Shown here: positions 12,120-14,851 of the stretch, piece by piece
Position numbering within the stretch: position 1 is the stretch's first letter
Layout of the letters: each line of letters opens with the position of its first letter
NCBI RefSeq assembly: GCF_013752535.1
Contig: NZ_CP058348.1
Coordinates: 2,914,001 to 2,978,000, forward strand
Source of the DNA: Bdellovibrio sp. KM01
GTDB lineage: Bacteria; Bdellovibrionota; Bdellovibrionia; Bdellovibrionales; Bdellovibrionaceae
DNA length: 64,000 nucleotides
Reading direction: 5' to 3'
Translations under genes and position numbers: made by a program
Notes under the pieces: generated by a model
The model's input: only the letters and a program-made list of their open reading frames with translations
The model's database searches: none
Told to the model about the DNA's origin: nothing

Positions 12120-12549
12120 TTTTCCCAGTTCAGCCCAACTCCCCACCATCCTGGGGTATCGGTCGTGACGACGCGCCACCACCCACACACCACCCGTTTT
12201 CGGGGTATCGGTCAACCCACACCCATCGGCCTTGAAACGCCCCCACACCCCGCCAATCAAAATCAATCGAATGGGGTATCGGTCAAGTCATCAAGTCCAC
12301 TCCACCTACCCCAGCCAGCTGCAATGCTTTTGGGAGTATCCTGGGGGTATCGGTCATCCCTTACCCAACTAAATAACCACACATCCACATCCACGTCCAA
12401 TTACCGGACACTAACTTCTGTGAGAGCACACTCATCTGCGTCCGAATACTGCTTAGTTATTGCAGCTGAATTTCACGCATGACCGATACCTCCACCTCCG
12501 CCTCCGCCGCCCCGACATCCCGCCGAATCACGTACATGCGAATAAGGAG
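12120..12549 (+). repeat. C-rich array of GGGGTATCGGTC repeats upstream of RAYT gene
   Basis: This 430-base stretch has no convincing gene. It is strikingly C-rich on the + strand. It holds four exact direct copies of GGGGTATCGGTC at 12153-12164, 12202-12213, 12273-12284 and 12344-12355, spaced 49, 71 and 71 bases. One inverted near-copy (GACCGATACCTC) lies at 12481-12492. Each direct copy has an ACCC or CCCC tract 10-40 bases upstream that could pair with its GGGG, giving weak stem-loops. The position beside a RAYT gene suggests these are its recognition or REP-like elements; that link is inference. Confidence 0.7.
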
Positions 12550-13107
12550 ATGCTTTTGAAACAACAAACTTTTTCTACAATGCATACACATTGGAAATAT
12601 AGATACTGTCATGGAGGATCGTTGCGTAAATCTCTGAAGGGCCGAGGCGCACGGCCACTTTCCAGCACGGAACCGATTCATCTCGTTTTTAAAGTGAATA
12701 AATCGGCGGTTCGCGGCGGGCTGCGCAGTCCTCGGACGTTTTTTCTTATCAATAATCTGCTGAGAAAATATTCGCGCAAATTCTTCGTCCGTGTTGAGCA
12801 GCATTCTATTCAGAATGATCACATCCATATTCTTTTGCGGGGAGGTAAACGTTCGCAGATGCAGAGCTTTTTTAGAGTGTTAGCCGGGCAATTCGCGCAG
12901 AGGTTGACCGATACCTTCTGCACCAAACATGAGGGCGACAAAATTTGGAAGCATCGGCCGTTTTCTCGCGTCGTCAAAGGCCACAGGCCATACAGGATTG
13001 TTCGAGACTATATTCAGCTCAATGAATGTGAAGCCAAGGGGCGACCTTATTCAAAATCAAGATTGCGTGGATTGACTCAGGAACAGCTCATAGAGCTTTG
13101 GAACTAG
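12550..13107 (+). CDS. REP-associated tyrosine transposase (RAYT, Y1/HUH family)
   Basis: 185 residues. The Y1_Tnp fold is seen from EPIHLVFKV onward: the HUH pair is HIH (residues 91-93) within QNDHIHILL, IWKHRPFSRVV matches the family's W-x-R-F segment, and the catalytic Tyr is Y154 in VRDYIQLNE. RAYTs are single-copy, domesticated relatives of IS200/IS605 transposases that cut single-stranded REP hairpins. Start is uncertain: AAGGAG abuts the ATG at 12550, while the in-frame TTG at 12556 has ideal spacing. The first ~40 residues are basic and atypical. An IR flanking pair typical of an insertion sequence was not seen. A further GACCGATACC occurs inside the gene at 12906. Confidence 0.82.
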   Translation: MLLKQQTFSTMHTHWKYRYCHGGSLRKSLKGRGARPLSSTEPIHLVFKVNKSAVRGGLRSPRTFFLINNLLRKYSRKFFVRVEQHSIQNDHIHILLRGGKRSQMQSFFRVLAGQFAQRLTDTFCTKHEGDKIWKHRPFSRVVKGHRPYRIVRDYIQLNECEAKGRPYSKSRLRGLTQEQLIELWN

Positions 13108-14248: not shown

Positions 14249-14851
14249 ATGAATAAATTTATGCTATCCCTGATCGCACTTTGCGCGTTTGCACACACTG
14301 CTCACGCAAATGATTTTGATGGTTATCAATCCGAAGAATCTGCTTACAGCCAAGAATCTGAAATGAGCCAAGACGAAGCGGCGATGATGTCTGATGACGT
14401 AGCAGCTTACGGTCGTGGTGGCGGCCGTGGTGATGGTCGCGGCCCAGGTCGCGGCGGCCCAGGTTGGGGTCGTCCTGATTACGGCCCGGGTCATGGTGGT
14501 CCTCGTCCTCGCCCATATCCTCCAGGACATGGTGGCCCAGGTCACGGTGGCCCAGGTTATCCTCCTCCAGGTCACGGCGGCCCCGGTCATGGCGGCCCAG
14601 GTTACCCTCATCCAGGCCCTGGTTACCCACCACCTCCACCACACCAACCAAGTGTTGAGTATGTTACTTGTGAATCTTATGGCAGCCGTTACAACACGTG
14701 CTACGTGAATCCATACGGTATCCGCAGAGTTTACTTGGCGAGACAAATCTCCAACACTCGTTGCGAAGCCAACAGAACTTTCGGTCTTTCTGGAAACTAT
14801 ATCTGGGTTGATCGTGGTTGCCGCGGAGTCTTCGCAGTCGAGCGCTACTAG
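14249..14851 (+). CDS. Secreted Gly/His/Pro-rich protein with DUF3011 domain
   Basis: 200 residues; AAGGAAAAG precedes the ATG. A signal peptide ends at AHAND. An acidic stretch (about 25-53) is followed by ~80 residues of GHGGPGHGGPGYPPPG-type repeats, two near-identical blocks, rich in Gly, His and Pro. The C-terminal ~60 residues match DUF3011: VTCESYGSRYNTC, RQISNTRC and IWVDRGCRGVF with four conserved Cys. DUF3011 proteins are extracytoplasmic, possibly binding sugars; this is not proven. The His-rich repeat might bind metal. Confidence 0.83.
   Translation: MNKFMLSLIALCAFAHTAHANDFDGYQSEESAYSQESEMSQDEAAMMSDDVAAYGRGGGRGDGRGPGRGGPGWGRPDYGPGHGGPRPRPYPPGHGGPGHGGPGYPPPGHGGPGHGGPGYPHPGPGYPPPPPHQPSVEYVTCESYGSRYNTCYVNPYGIRRVYLARQISNTRCEANRTFGLSGNYIWVDRGCRGVFAVERY

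Follow-up and report, generated by a model that had tools for sequence, protein, structure and literature searches.

The model we propose for this locus is that of a RAYT/TIRYT-like element, one of eight in the genome, whose enzyme probably recognises the linear motif GGGGTAYCGGTCA, and in which copies of this motif would form inward-facing ends and, probably, autoregulatory sites. The direct basis of this model is the motif itself, its layout around the gene, its association with a single clade of transposases, the conservation as DNA of the copy lying inside the gene, the hairpins formed by inverted pairs only, and the empty sites found in relatives.

The window locus and its enzyme

The locus lies in the window, i.e. 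the whole stretch of 64,000 nucleotides that was analysed (Table 1). The earlier note had reported four exact 12-base copies of GGGGTATCGGTC upstream of a transposase gene, and these are indeed found, starting at 12153, 12202, 12273 and 12344 (49, 71 and 71 from start to start), together with the inverted near-copy on the 5' side of the gene (12481-12492, one mismatch) and the core copy within it (GGTATCGGTC, inverted, 12906-12915). Its coordinates hold; the open reading frame listed from 12460 is too long, and the inverted copy at 12481 belongs to the leader, not to the coding sequence. The most likely start is predicted to be the TTG at 12556, since the paralogs begin with MKQQTF(S) there with a similar spacing and AAGGAG stands at 12544, and it is this start that places the inverted copy in the 5' leader. 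At up to 2 mismatches, the window holds 11 matches to the motif, against a mean of 2.3 in shuffled sequences, of which 0 out of 100 reach 11. The leader copy and repeat 4 constitute a 16-nt inverted repeat that is 94% complementary. This locus has no tightly spaced inverted pair, the nearest arms being 121 nt apart, and no copy downstream of the gene, all copies being upstream or internal; both features count against the model. Neither sigma-70 promoter-like sites in the region nor Rfam families in the repeat region or the leuS leader were found. Further downstream, at 14249-14851, the window encodes a Gly/Pro/His-rich repetitive protein with a signal-peptide-like start.

Table 1. Positions of the repeats, signals and gene features at the transposase locus of the window.
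Feature	Position	Strand	Remarks
Repeat 1	12153..12165	+	GGGGTATCGGTCG, 1 mismatch to GGGGTAYCGGTCA
Repeat 2	12202..12214	+	GGGGTATCGGTCA
Repeat 3	12273..12285	+	GGGGTATCGGTCA
Repeat 4	12344..12356	+	GGGGTATCGGTCA
TTGCA, second short motif	12460..12464	+	Found upstream of most family members
Inverted leader copy	12480..12492	-	GAGGTATCGGTCA
AAGGAG, likely ribosome-binding site	12544..12549	+	From sequence; spacing as in paralogs
Y1/HUH transposase gene	12556..13107	+	183 aa; predicted TTG start; Y1_Tnp domain
HUH	12820-12828		Within transposase gene
Internal copy	12905..12917	-	AAGGTATCGGTCA; read L-T-D-T-F; variable loop between HUH and Tyr
Catalytic Tyr	13009-13011		Within transposase gene; YIQLNE

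The identification of the product as a Y1/HUH transposase is confirmed by its match to Pfam Y1_Tnp (36.6 bits for a cut-off of 23), a domain found in 22/22 family members, and by the residues H89-I-H91 and Tyr152, both histidines and the tyrosine being invariant in the 22 sequences. The AlphaFold model (pLDDT 79) matches IS608, ISDra2 and the E. coli RAYT 4er8. The protein remains below the cut-offs of the NCBIfam models REP_Tyr_transpos (RAYT; 25-27 bits versus 80) and transpos_IS200 (28 bits versus 55); the class 2 signature Y---NP (PMC6006769) is absent, the corresponding motif being YIQLNE, and the 183 residues include no long C-terminal domain. The label RAYT given by the earlier note therefore stands for a RAYT-related Y1/HUH enzyme and falls for a RAYT associated with REPs, for which the model score, the tyrosine motif and the repeat type all fail.

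Distribution of the motif and of the transposase family

In the genome of 3.96 Mb there are 20 exact copies of the 12-mer (reversed control, 0), 17 of which sit at paralogous transposase genes. When one mismatch to the 13-mer GGGGTATCGGTCA is allowed, 39 sites are found genome-wide (reversed control, 1), 29 of which, counted from their positions, belong to eight paralogous loci, namely that of the window gene, those of six full paralogs (62-77% identity of their products to the window protein) and that of one fragment (52%). The consensus GGGGTAYCGGTCA is sharply bounded; it spans 13 bp in the genus and extends to 14 bp (...CAC) elsewhere, in other genera, no conservation being detected in the flanks beyond these 13-14 bp. 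The earlier note had held that its reading would fall if the repeat occurred nowhere else; this refutation fails, since copies of the repeat mark both the paralogs and the 38 homologs. The repeats are not confined to intergenic DNA, nearly every family member having a conserved coding copy. Three exact copies lie away from the paralogous loci. Two are within long open reading frames and may be ordinary coding sequence; the third is a solo GGGGTATCGGTCA in the leuS leader (G000 C1:344482-344494, L122; also L125, L079 and L080), and it is kept, with variable bases just before it, in 4/4 related species that possess the transposase family, the comparison being that of these four species, as the leaders of other species are not alignable there. 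Dispersed solo copies are also present, between and within genes, in several family-bearing genomes. Among the matches listed in the literature search, no title on repeats or transposases corresponded to the motif strings, in line with the suggestion of the earlier note that the recognition-type element is possibly new.

The layout was analysed in 38 Bdellovibrionales homologs, retained at more than 40% identity, plus one at 34%; the named relatives are Bdellovibrionaceae, Pseudobdellovibrio, Bdellovibrio sp. qaytius and similar bins. At these 38 loci, the upstream copies are mostly in the sense orientation (67 +, 11 -), the internal ones almost always antisense (40 -, 3 +) and the downstream ones all antisense (18 -, 0 +). 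In many cases the upstream copy touches the start codon or extends over it, and several of the downstream copies provide the TGA at which the gene stops. Among 60 genomes, counts of 4-24 exact 12-mers are reached only in those that carry the family (8/60 with at least four, all eight being carriers), the others having three at most, and a similar concentration is seen in 291 genomes of the phylum. In the tree, the 38 motif carriers constitute one side of a branch supported at 100/100, and the motif is missing from 13 related Y1 genes, two of which belong to this genome. Within the carrier clade, copies of the same genus tend to cluster, so that the family seems to have undergone separate expansions in several lineages. 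In the orthologous flanks of the nearest relative, the repeats are 80% identical and the spacers 56%, a comparison for which the Fisher test treats sites as independent.

The second short motif, TTGCA, is found upstream of 29/38 members, in most cases some 20-34 bp before the proximal repeat, and its extended forms occur in 28/38 upstream regions (7.6 expected) versus 3/38 downstream regions. Judged by eye, it does not match a sigma-54 element in its spacing or in the GG element. Two other features of the flanks were observed: two copies of ACCGATACCAAA, which resembles the motif core, flank a distant paralog devoid of full repeats (L029:941-952 and 2298-2309), and a TCCA/TCTA tetranucleotide run lies inside the upstream array of L073 (G012 2770k) and is not present in the G000 ortholog.

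Empty sites were found in relatives at three loci. Relatives having the same flanking genes lack the element at the window locus, the nearest of these having 43 bp there. At the 3344k locus, one relative has an empty site, with the only nearly clean insertion joint of the set (CACAAATTTCC/CATTTGAATC); in another the locus is degraded, a deletion starting at the first repeat and the C-terminal part remaining. In a relative, the two stop codons that border the 3517k locus are 11 bp apart. No clean joints could be mapped at the 907k, 2849k and 2580k loci, owing to the divergence of the intergenic DNA. From these comparisons alone, the empty sites are either gains or losses of the element. The paralogs of this genome, with the above-mentioned degree of identity to the window protein, are mostly found at orthologous places in the nearest relative; this, like the single nearly clean joint, counts against the model, and mobility at the present time is thus only conjectural. 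At the locus orthologous to that of the window in L102 (G011 C4:157000-160500), about 1.6 kb of other DNA is present.

The internal copy and the competing explanations

Throughout the family, the internal copy encodes [V/L/M/A]-T-[D/G]-T. These residues come directly after the helix following the HUH strand, in the most length-variable stretch of the protein, which is weakly predicted in the AlphaFold model. The copy lies antisense, at most loci 360-410 bp from the proximal upstream copy. It could be regarded as a mere T-D-T protein motif with biased codons, and in the protein alignment T118 and T120 are indeed invariant. Nevertheless, the threonine codons are ACC in 75/76 cases here, versus 25% elsewhere in the same genes, and, of 143 codon columns, the two threonine columns show the highest excess of synonymous conservation (the value of the binomial codon test, which ignores relatedness, is not used as a probability). 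Furthermore, the letters TG stay fixed in 36/38 members while the preceding residue varies between V, L and M, the other two having GCG; the D/G alternation follows the T/C alternation at the Y position of the DNA motif; and two members carry two internal copies each. Codon bias or a protein-only constraint was rejected on this codon analysis, and the protein-motif explanation is barely credible. The ACC bias, the constant TG before it and the D/G residues tracking the motif lead us to conclude that the internal copy is under selection as DNA itself.

The DNA could also act through the mRNA, the leader copy pairing with the internal antisense copy and thereby blocking translation, given that sense and antisense copies share a transcript and that the leader copy adjoins or overlaps the start codon. 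The two copies show no covariation across loci (420 pairs versus 419.3 in permutations, 43% of which are as high), and a C stands opposite an A at six loci, which makes such RNA pairing highly improbable. The folding of the repeats bears on another explanation, a classical RAYT whose repeats would be the halves of REP/REPIN hairpins. In its favour, the fold of the protein is RAYT-like and inverted pairs 31-44 bp apart fold strongly at several paralogs, with stems of 13-16 bp at three paralogous loci (z -4.5 to -4.8). Against it, only inverted pairs make hairpins: a hairpin from one repeat was considered and rejected, single repeats folding no better than shuffles. They have no GTAG/GTGG foot, many loci possess direct repeats only, there are about 20 copies per genome, and the protein scores 25 bits for a RAYT cut-off of 80 and has YIQLNE for Y---NP (PMC6006769). 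The remark of the earlier note that these are not classical REPs is thus upheld by the lack of a palindrome, the unfolded single copies and the copy number, and the REP explanation appears improbable.

A more serious competitor, although in our view an unlikely one, is that a host transcription factor or silencer has its operator in the motif and thereby restrains the transposase genes and leuS, the transposase itself not recognising the motif. The binding of a host regulator would give much of the same pattern, and this counts against the element model: the motif is linear and sharply bounded like a factor site, some of its copies stand at start codons and one in the leader of leuS, and it forms tandem arrays, as operators do. 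However, high counts are found only alongside this transposase clade, and the motif does not accompany the remaining Y1 genes of these genomes; the orientation is strictly inward, downstream copies included; and an ordinary repressor needs neither internal nor downstream copies.

Proposed mechanism and related systems

In the element model that we favour, copies of the cognate site would face inward on either side of the gene for a single-domain Y1/HUH endonuclease, and this enzyme would recognise the site, the linear motif GGGGTAYCGGTCA, which in other genera is 14 bp long (...CAC). The upstream sense and downstream antisense copies would serve as sub-terminal ends and, in single-stranded DNA, opposed copies would pair into stems of 13-16 bp, the substrate for HUH cutting and joining. 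Such cutting and joining of strands would explain the spread of the whole element, the gain and loss of repeats in the arrays, and the small number of scattered solo copies. As for the antisense copy fixed within the gene, it would most simply be a second operator, the enzyme bound at the leader and internal sites limiting the expression or the processing of its own gene. We infer the binding, cutting, mobilisation and autoregulation in this scheme.

The nearest described kind, compared by description, is the TIRYT/TIRtron of Di Nocera et al. 2013 (PMC3733652). In both cases a RAYT-related Y1 gene is flanked by inverted non-REP repeats, many of which start with GGGG, and which can extend over the ends of the gene and make up small families of repeats; flanking inverted repeats unrelated to REPs are found family-wide here, the window having no downstream copy. 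The published motif GGGGWSAS, common to some but not all TIRYTs (PMC3733652), differs from GGGGTAYCGGTCA(C), since GGGGTAYCGG has only GGGGT in common with it, and the present family is distinguished by direct upstream arrays, many paralogs per genome and a fixed copy in the coding sequence. TIRYTs belong mostly to TnpA_Y1 subclass 2.1 (PMC6006769), which has a long C-terminal extension, whereas here there is none and the tyrosine motif is YIQLNE. In subclass 2.4, REPs are inserted in frame in the gene (PMC6006769), and there too recognition repeats lie between HUH and Tyr with the frame kept; those insertions are palindromic GT[AG]G REPs, whereas here a short linear motif occupies a homologous place in nearly all members, with its codons held. 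With the RAYT/TnpA_REP systems of E. coli, Pseudomonas and Stenotrophomonas, the family shares HUH and a single Tyr, the 4er8 fold, and repeats both flanking the gene and dispersed in the genome; it differs by non-palindromic repeats without a GTAG/GTGG foot, by about 20 copies versus usually more than 100, by the unreached NCBIfam RAYT cut-off and by the missing Y---NP. The IS200/IS605 elements IS608 and ISDra2 have the same catalytic fold and are the closest solved structures; here, the IS200 cut-off is not reached, and neither near-identical genomic copies nor a single-repeat hairpin is found.

In conclusion, our observations link an enzyme clade and a short recognition-type motif across genera, and the sharply bounded 13-base sequence points to a putative, as yet undescribed recognition site written into the gene's own protein. 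RAYTs and related enzymes are regarded as domesticated transposases. What do the RAYT relatives outside the REP-bearing groups recognise, and why are they kept? A tentative and still doubtful answer is that this Y1/HUH family recognises a linear site of 13-14 bp instead of a hairpin, spreads it, and carries an in-frame copy as a built-in brake. A target site held as DNA in the coding sequence of the enzyme itself would be an unusual double constraint on one stretch, and hints at the self-limitation of a mobile gene. If so, a DNA target would dictate a loop of the protein, and the brake would be an operator or a self-cutting site acting on expression or mobility.
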